Assembly: GCF_030718205.1 (NCBI RefSeq)
Contig: NZ_JAUZQF010000007.1
Location: 186,001-250,000 of the forward strand
Origin: Nonomuraea turcica
GTDB lineage: Bacteria; Actinomycetota; Actinomycetes; Streptosporangiales; Streptosporangiaceae
Reading direction: 5' to 3'
Length of the DNA stretch: 64,000 nt
In this document: piece by piece, positions 5,354 to 9,893 of the stretch
Numbering within the stretch: position 1 is the first letter of the stretch
How the letters are laid out: every line of letters begins with the position of its first letter
The notes under the pieces: model-generated
Database searches by the model: none
What the model was told of the DNA's origin: nothing
The model's input: the letters and a program-made list of their open reading frames with translations, nothing else
Made by a program: the position numbers and the translations under genes

Positions 5354-6349
5354 TCATTCATGGTGCGCACCGTCAGGTTCGGGGCGGGTGGTGGCGAAGG
5401 CCGCGCCGGCCGCGTGATCCTGCGCAAGTCTGTCCTGCTCGGCCGTCCACCCGGTCGCCGCACGCAGGCTGTCGAACTCCTGGCACAGGGTGGTCGCCGA
5501 GGTGGTGCGCGTGTCCGTGTTGATGGTGACAGCAAGCCCTTCGGACAGGAGCCGGGCCGCGGGATGTGCCCGGAGGCCGGAGACTGCGCCGGTTTGCACA
5601 TTGCTCGTCGGGCACATCTCCAGGGTGATACCGTCGCGTCGCAGCCGTTCGAGGAGCGCGTGCTCGCCGACGCACCTGATGCCGTGGCCGATCCGGCGCG
5701 CGCCGAGCACATCGATCGCCTCCCACATGCTGTCGGCGCCTGCCGCCTCGCCGGCGTGAACCGTACACGGGAGTCCCGCCCCGTGGGCGAGGTCGAAGGC
5801 GGCCCGGTGCGGGGTGGCGGTGTGGAGCCGCTCGTCGCCCGCGAGATCAAGTCCGGCCACCTTGTCGCGGTGCCGCAGCGCCGTTTCGGCGACGGCGAGA
5901 CTCTCCTCGGGTGTCTGGTGCCGCAGGCAGCACAGCAGCAGCCCAGTGCGTACGCCGGTGGCCTGCCGTCCTGCCGCCAGACCCTCGGACACGGCCTGGA
6001 CCGCCTCGTCCTGAGTCATGCCGCGACGGCCGTGCAACTGCGGGGCGAAGCGCACCTCGCCGTAGACCACGCCGTCGGCGCTCCAGTCTTCGACCAGCTC
6101 GCGGGCGGCCCTGCGGAGAGCGCCAGCGGTCTGCAGCACCCGCAGCGGCACGTCGATGTAGGTGAGGAACCGGGTCAGGCTGCCACAGGAGGCGGGCGCC
6201 GTGACCAGTCGCTCGACGGGGGCGTTCAAGACAATGCCCTGGCGGCGTGCCAGGTCGGCGACCGTGCCGGGGCGTACCGATCCGTCGAGATGGCAGTGCA
6301 GCTCGTGACGCGGCACGGAAGCGGTGTCGGTGGCGGTGTCCAAGCTCAT
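5354..6349 (-). CDS. add: Adenosine deaminase
   Basis: This 331-residue cytosolic zinc enzyme is predicted to deaminate adenosine or deoxyadenosine to inosine. The sequence shows the N-terminal metal motif HCHLDGS, the HAGEAAG motif with the catalytic Glu, IGHGIRC, and NTDTRTTS in place of the NTDD of the classical enzyme. Actinobacterial paralogues are also variable there (NTDNR). The ATG at 6349 was chosen because the motif HCHLDGS follows about 16 residues later and AGGA lies 7 nt upstream. The IS110 element begins 7-9 nt upstream of this start codon and separates the gene from its former operon partner, the nucleoside hydrolase. Confidence 0.9.
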   Translation of the reverse strand: MSLDTATDTASVPRHELHCHLDGSVRPGTVADLARRQGIVLNAPVERLVTAPASCGSLTRFLTYIDVPLRVLQTAGALRRAARELVEDWSADGVVYGEVRFAPQLHGRRGMTQDEAVQAVSEGLAAGRQATGVRTGLLLCCLRHQTPEESLAVAETALRHRDKVAGLDLAGDERLHTATPHRAAFDLAHGAGLPCTVHAGEAAGADSMWEAIDVLGARRIGHGIRCVGEHALLERLRRDGITLEMCPTSNVQTGAVSGLRAHPAARLLSEGLAVTINTDTRTTSATTLCQEFDSLRAATGWTAEQDRLAQDHAAGAAFATTRPEPDGAHHE

Positions 6350-6404
6350 CGGCGTCCTAATCAGTGTTAGCGAGTCGCCTTGCGGCAGACTCGGTGGTTG
6401 GTAG

Positions 6405-6575
6405 CCGCCCGACAGGTGAGCACTTGTGCGTCCTGGACTTCGAGTCCTGCTGAAAGACAGTGCCCCTGCCGGTTGGCCGGGAGAGTTGATCGCTTCTGGG
6501 ATGTCGTTGCCCACTGACGGTGTCGGTGTGAGCACTGCTTGATTAGGTCGCTGATGGTCCTCCCGCCGGCTGCTG
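6405..6575 (+). ncRNA. IS110 bridge RNA with target- and donor-binding loops
   Basis: The first stem-loop is closed by GCACT (6420-6424) with AGTGC (6459-6463). It exposes GCGTCCT (6428-6434), identical to the left flank plus core at 6352-6358, then a hairpin GGACT-TCG-AGTCC (6435-6447), then CTGAAAG (6450-6456), the reverse complement of core plus right flank at 7857-7863. The second loop exposes CTGGGATGTC (6496-6505), identical to the element right end at 7848-7857. A hairpin follows (6512-6518 with 6522-6528), then TGATTAG (6540-6546), the reverse complement of core plus left end at 6357-6363. Order and geometry match the IS621-type bridge RNA. Outer limits are approximate. Confidence 0.85.
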
Positions 6576-6606
6576 CTGGTGATCGTTTCCTGCGTAGGGA
6601 GAGCTG

Positions 6607-7836
6607 GTGCGACTGTTTGTTGGTGATGACTGGGCCGAGGCGCATCACGATGTGGAGGTGATGGACGGCTCCGGCCGCCGGTTGGCCAAGGCCCGGCTGC
6701 CCGAGGGCGTGGCGGGGATGGCCCGGCTGCACGCGATGATCGCCGAGCAGACCGGCGACATCCCCGATGAGGACGTGGAGGTGCTGGTCGGGATCGAGAC
6801 CGACCGGGGTCCGTGGGTGCTGGCGCTGGTCGCGGCCGGATACACGGTGTTCGCGGTCAACCCGTTGCAGGCCGCCCGCTACCGCGAGCGGCTGGGAACG
6901 TCGGGCGCCAAGAGCGACGCGGCCGACGCGCACATGCTGGCCGACATGGTCCGTACCGACTCTCACCAGTTGCGGCCGATCGCCGGCGACAGTCCGCAGG
7001 CCGAGGCGATCAAGGTCGTCGCCCGCACCCACAAGACCCTGATCTGGGAACGGACCCGGGCCGGGCAGCGGCTGCGGCACGCGCTGCGGGAGTACTTCCC
7101 CGCCGCCCTGACCGCGTTCGAGGATCTGGACGCCGCCGAAGCCTTGGACCTGCTGGCCAAGGCCCCCACTCCGGAGCAGGCCGCGAGGCTGAGCGTCAGC
7201 CAGATCAGCGCAGCGCTCAAACGCGCCCGCCGCCGTGGCGACCTGGCCGCCCGCGCCACCGACATCCAGACGGCGCTGCGCACCGAGCACCTGGGTCAGC
7301 CCGAGGTGGTCACCACGGCCTACGCGATGTCGGTCCAGGCAATGGTCGCGATCCTGGCCGTGCTCGGCGAGCAGATCAAGACCCTGCAGGGGCAGGTGGA
7401 GGAGTGTTTTGGCCAGCACCCGGCCGCTGAGATCATCGTCTCCCAGCCCGGACTGGGAGCGATCCTCGGCGCCCGGGTGCTCGCAGAGTTCGGCGACGAC
7501 CGCCGCCGCTACGCCAGCGCCAAGGCCCGCAAGAACTACGCCGGGACCAGCCCCATCACCCGCGCCTCGGGCAAGAAGAAGAGCGTCCTGGCCCGGTACG
7601 TGCACAACGACCGGCTCATCGACGCTCTGATGACCCAGGCCTCGGTGGCGCTGCGAGTCTCGCCCGGTGCCCGCGCCTACTACGACAAGCAACGCGCCCG
7701 CGGAGCCGGCTACAACACCGCGCTGCGCCAACTCGCCAACCGGCTCGTCGGCATCCTGCACGGCTGCCTCAAAACCGGCACGCTCTACGACGAAGTGACC
7801 GCTTGGTCGCATCACGTCCAGAGTGCTACGGCTTGA
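6607..7836 (+). CDS. IS110-family DEDD transposase/recombinase
   Basis: This 409-residue protein has an N-terminal RuvC-like DEDD domain: D in VGDDWAEAHHDV near residue 8, E in IETDRGPW near 64, and D residues in GAKSDAADAHMLADM near 104. A coiled central part follows, then the C-terminal Transposase_20 domain with SQPGLGAILGARVLAEFGDD and the PITRASGKK segment near 320. In IS110 enzymes the second domain supplies a conserved Ser. It acts with the bridge RNA encoded just upstream to join the CT cores of donor and target. Start GTG at 6607 has GGGAGAG upstream. The gene is full length, so the element may be active. Confidence 0.95.
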   Translation: MRLFVGDDWAEAHHDVEVMDGSGRRLAKARLPEGVAGMARLHAMIAEQTGDIPDEDVEVLVGIETDRGPWVLALVAAGYTVFAVNPLQAARYRERLGTSGAKSDAADAHMLADMVRTDSHQLRPIAGDSPQAEAIKVVARTHKTLIWERTRAGQRLRHALREYFPAALTAFEDLDAAEALDLLAKAPTPEQAARLSVSQISAALKRARRRGDLAARATDIQTALRTEHLGQPEVVTTAYAMSVQAMVAILAVLGEQIKTLQGQVEECFGQHPAAEIIVSQPGLGAILGARVLAEFGDDRRRYASAKARKNYAGTSPITRASGKKKSVLARYVHNDRLIDALMTQASVALRVSPGARAYYDKQRARGAGYNTALRQLANRLVGILHGCLKTGTLYDEVTAWSHHVQSATA

Positions 7837-7839
7837 CAT

Positions 7840-8823
7840 TCAAACTCCTGGGATGTCTTTCAGATCACGTCCGCTCTGGCCGATTCCGGCACACGTGGTG
7901 AACAACAGATCCTTGAAGCCGGCTTCGCTGACCCGGCGGACCAGCGTCAGATTGGGCGGAGGGGCAGAGCGGCGACGGTCGATGATCAGCTGGCCGCGGG
8001 TCTCGTCGCCGAGGGCGATGTCCACATGAGCCTCCTCCCGCTCGATGATCAGTTTTGGCCGCAGCGCCACCGCCATGGCGACGGGGTCCGGGAGGTCATA
8101 GCCGGCCAGGCCGGTGACGTCGCGAGCCCAGTCGGCGACAGTACGGTTCACGCGATGGGCGAAGGCGGCCATCGGGGTGCCGAGCCGCTCCAGCCGGGAC
8201 TGGTCCTCAGCCGTCATGACGGCGTCCCGGCGGGAGACGTCCCAGCCGATCCAGGTCACCTTGTCGGGCCTGGCGGCCTGCAGCACCACCCGGGCCGCCT
8301 CGGGGTCGGCCCAGGCGTTGAACTCGGCGGTGGCCGTGATGTTGCCGCTCAGGTCGGCGGCGCCGGCCATGCAATACACATGCCGATACCGGGTGAGTAG
8401 ATCGCGGTCGCGGACCAGCGCGGCCGCGATGTTGGTGAGCGGGCCGAGCGTGACCAGCGTCAGCTCACCGGGGTGCCTGCGCGGGTACGACAGCAAGACC
8501 TCGACGGCGTGCTGCGGCTCTGCGGACCGCATCGGGTCGGGCAGTAAGCCGGTGTCTCCCATCCCGTCCTGGCCGTGCACGTGCTGGGCGGTGGACAGCG
8601 TACGTGTCATCGGGCGTTCGCATCCCGGGTGGACGGGGACGTCGACGCGCCCGGCCACTTGCAGGGAAACGAGCGCGTTGCGGGTCCCCGCCGACAGGGG
8701 CACGTTGCCCGCCACCGTGGTCACGACGCGGACGTCTCCCAAACCGCTGGCGGCGGCCAGCAGCAACGCCACCGCGTCGTCGGACCCGGTGTCGGTATCG
8801 ATGATCAAGGGAAGAGCCGGCAC
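7840..8823 (-). CDS. Inosine/uridine-preferring nucleoside hydrolase, C-terminus altered by IS110
   Basis: This 327-residue enzyme is predicted to split ribonucleosides into base and ribose. It has the Ca2+-binding DTDTGSDDA signature at residues 9-17, the NVPL loop near 40, and the EFNAWADPEAA active-site segment near 167. The GTG start at 8823 has AAAGGTGAG upstream. The last five codons (DIPGV) and the stop come from the inserted element. Without it the frame would end KGRR-stop, with the TGA overlapping the adenosine deaminase ATG. Two LacI operators lie in its promoter, shared with the divergent regulator at 8895. Confidence 0.92.
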   Translation of the reverse strand: MPALPLIIDTDTGSDDAVALLLAAASGLGDVRVVTTVAGNVPLSAGTRNALVSLQVAGRVDVPVHPGCERPMTRTLSTAQHVHGQDGMGDTGLLPDPMRSAEPQHAVEVLLSYPRRHPGELTLVTLGPLTNIAAALVRDRDLLTRYRHVYCMAGAADLSGNITATAEFNAWADPEAARVVLQAARPDKVTWIGWDVSRRDAVMTAEDQSRLERLGTPMAAFAHRVNRTVADWARDVTGLAGYDLPDPVAMAVALRPKLIIEREEAHVDIALGDETRGQLIIDRRRSAPPPNLTLVRRVSEAGFKDLLFTTCAGIGQSGRDLKDIPGV

Positions 8824-8837
8824 GGCTCACCTTTCTG

Positions 8838-8876
8838 TCTAATCGTTTAGAGCAACCGCTATCTAATCGATTAGAT
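8838..8876. promoter_or_regulatory. Two LacI-type operators
   Basis: ATCTAATCGATTAGAT (8861-8876) is a perfect 16-bp palindrome with the central CG typical of LacI-family sites. TCTAATCGTTTAGA (8838-8851) is a near-copy whose centre is 24 bp away. Both sit between the divergent nucleoside hydrolase and LacI genes. Confidence 0.85.
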
Positions 8877-8894
8877 GGCAAGATGTAAACTGTT

Positions 8895-9893
8895 ATGACG
8901 AAACGCGCAGACAAGCCGATCACGCTGGCTGATGTGGCCCGCCGAGCAGGGACCTCGACCGCGGTGGTCAGCTATGTGATCAACAACGGTCCTCGTCCCG
9001 TCGCCGCCGCGACGCGGGAACGCGTCCTGGCGGCCGCGGCCGAGCTGCACTACCGGCCCAACCGCATCGCGCGGGCACTGCGCTCGCGCACCACGGGCGT
9101 GGTCGGCCTGGTGCTGGCCGACGCGTCCAATCCCTACTTCGGCGCCTTGGCCAGACACATCGAGCAAGCGCTCGAGAAGCGCGACCGGCTCACGCTGGTC
9201 GGCAACGCCGGATACTCCCCGGACCGCCAGCGGCATCTCACCGAGCGCTTCCTGGCCGCCCAAGTCGACGGGCTGATGATCGTCTCTGCGGACGGGGGTG
9301 GCGATGTGGCGGCCCAGGCTGAAGCGGCAGGCGTGCCGGCCGTGTACGTCCATCACGGCCACATCAGCGGGCAGGCACGGGTGGTGGCGGCCGACAACCA
9401 GGCCGCCGTGCACGAGGCGGTCGCGCACCTGCGTCGGCACGGGCACCGGCGCATCGCCTTCCTGACCGGCCCCTCCGACCAAGGGCCCGTGGGACTGCGG
9501 CGCAAGGCATGGGCTGCGGCTGTGACGGGCGATCCCGACGCCGTACTCCTGCGCTGCGACTACTCACGCGGCGCGGCGGACGCCTTGACTCGCCACCTCG
9601 TCGCTGAAGGGGCCATGCCACCGGCCTTGATCGCCTCCACGGACGAGCACGCCATCGGGGTCCTGTCCGGGGCGTGGGCCTCCGGGCTTCCCGTTCCCGA
9701 TCGGCTGGCGCTGATCAGCCTCGACGGAACGCCAGAGAGCGCCCACACCGCTCCGGCGCTGACGGTTACCCAACAGCCGCTGCAGGCCATGGCGGAGCAG
9801 GCCGTCGAGCTGCTGTTCGGCGACATTTCCCGGGCGCTTGTCGCACGTGCCCCTTTGATCATCAGGCGCAGCTGCGGTTGTGAGGCTCAATGA
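8895..9893 (+). CDS. LacI-family regulator of the nucleoside locus
   Basis: This 332-residue repressor has an N-terminal HTH (ITLADVARRAGTSTAVVSYVINN, written here only to name the helix pair, at about residues 9-31), the hinge helix RPNRIARAL near 55, and a periplasmic-binding-protein-like effector domain from about residue 65. The effector is probably a nucleoside or ribose, judged from the divergent nucleoside hydrolase. Two matching palindromic operators in the 71-bp intergenic region predict control of the divergent genes and autoregulation. The HAD phosphatase downstream may be cotranscribed. It ends in SCGCEAQ. Confidence 0.9.
   Translation: MTKRADKPITLADVARRAGTSTAVVSYVINNGPRPVAAATRERVLAAAAELHYRPNRIARALRSRTTGVVGLVLADASNPYFGALARHIEQALEKRDRLTLVGNAGYSPDRQRHLTERFLAAQVDGLMIVSADGGGDVAAQAEAAGVPAVYVHHGHISGQARVVAADNQAAVHEAVAHLRRHGHRRIAFLTGPSDQGPVGLRRKAWAAAVTGDPDAVLLRCDYSRGAADALTRHLVAEGAMPPALIASTDEHAIGVLSGAWASGLPVPDRLALISLDGTPESAHTAPALTVTQQPLQAMAEQAVELLFGDISRALVARAPLIIRRSCGCEAQ

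Follow-up and report, generated by a model that had tools for sequence, protein, structure and literature searches.

An IS110-group element of Nonomuraea turcica whose target guides spell a Shine-Dalgarno sequence and whose antisense open frame may relay ribosomes to the host start codon

Elements of the IS1111 group carry the bridge RNA in their right end and those of the IS110 group in their left end, and in IS621 the target loop of this RNA comes before the donor loop. The hed frame of IS900 was reportedly described by Doran in 1997. In the accessible sections of PMC11208160, guidance by bridge RNA is described for IS110 as a whole, so guidance in a further element, taken alone, adds another member. 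RNA-guided target choice, a circle promoter, and flanks matching the RNA are features of the seekRNA elements ISEc21 and ISEc11 in the accessible part of PMC11187229; the element studied here shares them, and these two elements have other targets and are likened to it by description only. For IS900 of Mycobacterium avium subsp. paratuberculosis, the parts of PMC8141618 at hand give the target motif CATGNNNNNNTCTCCTT and a complementary-strand frame, hed, which spans the element and is reported to have neither a ribosome site nor a start codon of its own. On our own reading, the motif CATGNNNNNNTCTCCTT is a start codon plus a Shine-Dalgarno sequence on the minus strand. In the open-licence literature searched, no paper was found that connects the guides of a bridge RNA with Shine-Dalgarno targeting or with hed.

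The element and its bridge RNA

In a 64,000-nucleotide stretch of the Nonomuraea turcica genome (the window), an intact IS110-family element occupies positions 6357..7858 on the plus strand, including the CT cores at its left (6357..6358) and right (7857..7858) ends, which were seen in the sequence and in the alignment of copies. The ends were set by alignment with 107 copies that have unique flanks. The original prediction, made from the DNA letters, had claimed this extent, IS110 membership, and a CT core. All of this stands: CT is found at both ends, the recombinase frame of 409 amino acids (aa) is intact, and the membership and core are upheld by PF01548 and PF02371, the guides, and the aligned ends.

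The recombinase (6607..7836, plus strand) matches PF01548 (E=4e-35), PF02371 (E=2.1e-12), and IS621 8wt6 (E=1e-10). IS621 and ISCro4 are remote sequence relatives of the protein, which has 409 aa versus 328 aa in the IS621 PDB chain. The C-terminal domain PF02371 with its conserved serine is present, and the SG of IS621 aligns with an SG of the recombinase, the serine of which we take to be the catalytic serine. The long left end (250 nt) holds the guides, and the right end is short (22 nt). Judged by its domains, left-end RNA, guide covariation, and junction promoter sequence, the element is a member of the IS110 group. It resembles IS621 in having a DEDD and a C-terminal serine domain, a CT core, a left-end RNA, and a junction promoter, as these are given in the accessible sections of PMC11208160, where no antisense frame like that of the window element is found for IS621. 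The two also differ in target, which is REP elements for IS621 and a Shine-Dalgarno sequence for the window element.

The element may be active, as originally proposed; a search of the genome returned one full copy of it and one 178-bp left-end fragment (L002, 1501-1680, contig C40), which is 87% identical, retains target guides of its own, and has no recombinase. The left guide of this remnant matches its own left flank (TGTCCT), and its right end is missing. It adjoins AGGACATCAGCC-ATG (AGGA-N8-ATG) of what appears, from the sequence, to be an NAD(P)H dehydrogenase-like gene. Among the copies from elsewhere, one on a viral contig has the left end of L051.

The bridge RNA region extends over approximately 6395..6590 (plus strand) according to a consensus fold of 29 sequences. 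Its target loop carries the left target guide (LTG) GCGTCCT at 6428..6434, which equals the left flank plus core at 6352-6358, and the right target guide (RTG) CTGAAAG at 6450..6456, the reverse complement of CTTTCAG at 7857-7863. Between them lies the hairpin GGACT-TCG-AGTCC (6435..6447), recognized by eye and in the consensus fold. The donor loop carries the left donor guide (LDG) CTGGGATGTC at 6496..6505, equal to the right end at 7848-7857, and the right donor guide (RDG) TGATTAG at 6540..6546, the reverse complement of CTAATCA at 6357-6363, with the hairpin CACTGAC-GGT-GTCGGTG, which has one G-U pair, between them. All of these features are on the plus strand. A direct check of the sequence found the letters and coordinates of the four guide matches to be as originally predicted; the two hairpins predicted between the guide pairs are present by eye, the donor one at about 6513..6529, and the predicted order, target loop and then donor loop, agrees with the consensus fold.

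The consensus fold of the 29 aligned sequences has two stem-loops, in which 16 of the 45 predicted pairs have changed on both sides. A single-sequence fold of 6405-6580 was no better than those of shuffled sequences (z of -0.22; 76 of 200 shuffles equally good) and is therefore uninformative, so the predicted structure rests on comparison. With Rfam, no family of bridge RNAs was found in 5500-9000 at E values up to 1.

The right end also carries TTGACA (7833..7838, plus strand), the -35 half of a putative junction promoter. The -10 half, TCTAAT, arises only on joining 7856-7858 to 6359-6361, with a 17-nt spacer, and the TTGACA-17-TCTAAT pattern is absent from the window as it stands. Among 60 types, the junction TTGACA-17/18-TCTAAT scored 11/12 in 49, 10 in 9, and 9 in 2; the promoter score of the inserted left end was 5 to 7 in 54 of the 60 types and 8 to 10 in the other 6. 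Following the published IS110 cycle, the joined ends of the circle would create the promoter, and since it is absent from the inserted element, production of the RNA and the recombinase would depend mainly on the circle.

Guide matching and the Shine-Dalgarno target

We collected 197 loci, of which 133 had both ends and 107 had unique flanks. Seven of the latter, among them L158, which is the window again, were left out because of short flanks or guides. The 100 copies used, all with distinct flanks, represent 72 distinct guide pairs. Matches between each guide and its own flank or own end were counted by position and compared with those after reshuffling the flanks 2,000 times, each row being a separate guide pair; this shuffling keeps the shared ancestry of the elements.

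LTG positions -1 to -6 matched their own left flanks in 65, 64, 57, 51, 43, and 40 of the 72 pairs, and RTG positions +1 to +5 matched their own right flanks in 72, 70, 71, 66, and 49, each more often than in any of the 2,000 shuffles. The counts at LTG -7 and -8 (32 and 36 of 72) were equalled once in 2,000 shuffles, and that at RTG +6 (21 of 72) was not above chance in the same shuffles. T stands at the second core position of the LTG in only 54 of the 72 pairs. For the donor loop, the RDG matched its own left end at +4 and +5 in 71 and 67 pairs and the LDG matched its own right end at -4 in 69, again above all 2,000 shuffles; the remaining donor positions are mostly near-invariant and hence uninformative. 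Covariation thus shows that the LTG and RTG select the insertion site and that the LDG and RDG select the ends of the element itself.

The alignment of copies thereby confirms, over the 72 guide pairs and 2,000 shuffles, that the target-loop guides of this element family covary with the insertion site. The contrary case, the same guides at unrelated flanks, was not encountered: the 17 guide pairs present in at least two copies share the core, with mean matches of 1.00, 1.00, 0.97, and 0.99 at right +1 to +4 and 0.94, 0.92, and 0.89 at left -1 to -3, and positions farther out vary. We also considered adaptation of the guides to the flank after insertion, which is unsupported, as single-copy elements match their flanks about as well as multi-copy ones. 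Held-out loci were drawn from plasmids and a phylum search (28 fetched, 17 usable), and as none of them is guided to a Shine-Dalgarno (SD) sequence, they test only guide matching and the negative arm. Right +1 to +3 all match in 16 of the 17, the left flank of L224 fits its own guide poorly, and at least one antisense stop is present in each of the 15 loci with an intact recombinase frame. In Actinopolymorpha pittospori, several element types occur in one genome (L055/L058, L081/L082, and L106/L107), with right guides CTTTC, CTGTC, and CTGCT, each matching its own right flanks.

The window element lies between two genes on the minus strand. Upstream is a nucleoside hydrolase gene (7840..8823; PF01156, E=1e-82), for which the element supplies the last codons and the TGA (7842-7840), and downstream is an adenosine deaminase gene (5354..6349; PF00962, E=2.8e-84, translated from 6370). 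When the flanks are joined, they read CTGAAAGGACGCCGATG on the minus strand, the ribosome site of the deaminase gene; taken as CTGAAAGGACGCCGATGAGC, they comprise the Shine-Dalgarno sequence and the ATG, and the hydrolase stop TGA would overlap this ATG. The upstream half of the split Shine-Dalgarno sequence is GAAAG (7857..7861, minus strand). At the other end, the core and left flank rebuild AGGA (6355..6358, minus strand), and a 5-nt gap separates it from the ATG of the deaminase gene (6349-6347). Read letter by letter, the target guides of the window element spell this Shine-Dalgarno sequence, a point that goes beyond the original prediction. As read from the sequence, the GRR at the end of the hydrolase is replaced by DIPGV, and the element-borne stop adjoins the antisense ATG described below. 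L159 and L160, which come from two further species of the genus and have 77% and 74% identity, carry the hydrolase-deaminase junction uninterrupted by the element. Since their target letters differ, they document the order of the genes but not the precise site. For an empty site within the species, genome G046 gave no match for the locus.

We defined the SD class, before the antisense test described below, by an RTG complement starting with CTTTC, which gives 34 copies, and looked in the flanks for a minus-strand ATG at 7 to 14 nt that opens at least 50 codons. Such an ATG was found in the left flank of 15 of the 34 SD-guided copies and in the right flank of 1, versus 3 and 4, respectively, of the 66 copies with other guides. 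At control sites in the flanking DNA, it was found for 8 of 62 GAAAGG and 2 of 15 GAAAGGA sequences, and at 154 of 4,100 random positions. SD-guided insertions without a qualifying ATG number 19 of 34, or 16 of 34 once GTG is allowed, which raises the left flanks of copies with other guides to 10 of 66. Roughly half of the SD-guided insertions are therefore in recognizable ribosome sites, and the rest are not. A wider definition of the class by any purine-rich target was rejected, as Rhodococcus targets with A-runs and G-runs come without an open antisense frame. The Rhodococcus plasmid elements in question (L203, L204, L206, and L208) have CCCC/CTTTT guides, targets with an A-run and a G-run, and two to four antisense stops each.

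The antisense open frame

On its minus strand, the window element is spanned by a hed-like open frame of 490 codons (6367..7839), likewise absent from the original prediction, which runs from an ATG at 7839-7837 to a TAA at 6369-6367, after which comes TGATTAGGACGCCGATG of the host gene. AGGAG (7845..7849, minus strand) stands 5 nt before the ATG. We compared this frame across guide types, leaving out the 12 of 72 guide pairs without a full recombinase frame and retaining 24 SD types and 36 others. AGGAG is found in 21 of the 24 SD types versus 7 of the 36 others, and an antisense start in all 24 SD types (ATG in 21, GTG in 3).

In the recombinase region, the codon-aligned antisense frame is stop-free in 22 of 24 SD types versus 5 of 36 others. 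The codons that read as antisense stops (TCA, TTA, and CTA) make up 2 of 9,911 codons in SD types versus 71 of 14,912 in the others; the counts of other A-ending codons are 544 and 869, respectively. Host codon usage, taken from the flanking genes, predicts 1.39 stops per SD element, or about 33 in the 24, where 2 were seen. Stop avoidance inside the SD lineages rests on many codons. In 21 of 24 SD types versus 11 of 36 others, the frame runs open into the last 21 nt of the left end or past it. Its stop is often one of the two in the terminal TGATTAG (TGA or TAG), and the final AG of this motif begins the host AGGA.

A frame that spans the whole element is present in 19 of 24 SD types versus 1 of 36 others, the sole exception being L045, whose target is AAAAGGGG. 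Of the five SD types that miss the full frame, L005, L071, and L136 have one that ends some 210 nt short of the left end, and L056 and L060 have one antisense stop each. For the 13 SD types with a recognized host start, the frame stop lies 6 to 17 nt before the start in 10 and overlaps it by 4 in one, and the frame is broken in L005 and L060. Five changes on the tree suffice to explain the SD guides, and the four to five independent pairs are too few for a P value of 0.05; the association of the frame with guide type thus rests on few evolutionary switches. For the whole frame, 3.6 to 3.7 of these pairs go in the expected direction and 0 to 0.1 in the opposite one, and for stops in the recombinase region alone, 2.5 to 2.8 and 0 to 0.3.

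In the window, the Rfam family RF02464 (Ms_AS-4) has a match at 7443-7524 on the minus strand, antisense to the recombinase gene, and it has such a match in all seven relatives tested (L034, L049, L072, L081, L084, L099, and L131); as RF02464 overlaps conserved coding sequence, the matches may be coding homology only. It may be that the family is really part of an IS110 element. In the accessible part of PMC4974804, Ms_AS-4 is listed as one of the M. smegmatis sRNAs for which ribosomal reads were significant; its locus there would be such an element.

A possible ribosome relay and its alternatives

We think it probable that the target loop of this IS110-family element reads the Shine-Dalgarno sequence and that the spanning antisense frame relays ribosomes to the host start. 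As covariation shows, the target guides pick the site and the donor guides pick the element's own ends. The counts show that SD guides often place the element antisense to a gene, within its ribosome site, with the AG of the core rebuilding AGGA before the start, and that SD-guided elements keep the antisense frame stop-free from right end to left end. The host mRNA would run through the element, and ribosomes, entering at the element's AGGAG-ATG or coming from the upstream gene, would follow on the antisense frame. They would stop shortly before the host start or overlapping it, so that the downstream gene would be little disturbed, and by accompanying RNA polymerase through the element, they would avoid termination of untranslated RNA. 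It is from sequence features that we infer this relay, of which the ribosomal reads of Ms_AS-4 may be an independent hint. More tentatively, we suggest that it could mark a transposon clade that shields its host by combining an SD-aimed guide with a relay frame. Insertion between operon genes would then be nearly silent, and guide and frame would co-evolve and be lost together.

A different view takes the antisense frame for a genuine gene whose protein product is what is selected, as has been proposed for hed of IS900; we hold this view to be unlikely. It fits the start codon in 24 of 24 SD types and the AGGAG in 21, the strong avoidance of antisense stops, and the lower third-base entropy of the SD types at 78 shared fourfold columns (0.913 versus 1.134, the other set being more diverse). 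However, protein-level selection on the frame was not seen with Pfam, at fourfold sites, or in third-base C/G. The frame has no Pfam match (best E value, 0.27). Compared at matched protein identity, SD pairs agree slightly more often at fourfold sites than other pairs in the range of 65 to 75% (0.586 and 0.614 versus 0.532 and 0.566), about equally often at 75 to 80% (0.642 versus 0.631), and less often at 80 to 85% (0.635 versus 0.667). Third-base C versus G is without a shift to G-first minus codons (0.557 versus 0.570; P = 0.06). Because there is little conservation beyond openness, we prefer the relay to a functional protein.

Openness itself could be an unselected by-product of high GC content and shared descent, since in high-GC genes an antisense frame in register with the codons commonly stays open, and since most SD types fall within one part of the tree, with few independent contrasts. 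We regard this as quite unlikely. The non-SD relatives have a similar GC3 (0.865 versus 0.886 in SD types) but carry 1.97 stops per element versus 0.08, TCA, TTA, and CTA are avoided whereas other A-ending codons are not, and about 31 to 41% of fourfold sites differ in SD pairs of 60 to 90% protein identity. As for the target, ribosome sites are AG-rich and intergenic, so a preference of the protein, or one for DNA shape, might select them, with the guide match secondary. This seems very improbable, as the letters at right +4 and +5 and at left -3 to -6 differ from element to element in step with each element's guides, and elements with other guides are seldom at start codons.

By its published description, IS900 shares with the window element both insertion inside translation start signals and a spanning complementary-strand frame. 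The two frames differ in that hed reportedly relies on the ribosome site and start of the host, whereas the window frame begins from an AGGAG-5-ATG that the right end itself provides. A guide RNA of this kind offers a concrete explanation of the old report that IS900-type elements strike translation start signals, and the function of the puzzling antisense frame becomes testable. Many genes have GAAAGGA at their ribosome sites, which would make it a favorable target for a mobile element. If the relay is true, one strand of 1.5 kb would encode the guide RNA and the recombinase and the other would hold a frame that stays open to the benefit of the host; selective constraints of this sort are seldom considered for insertion sequences.
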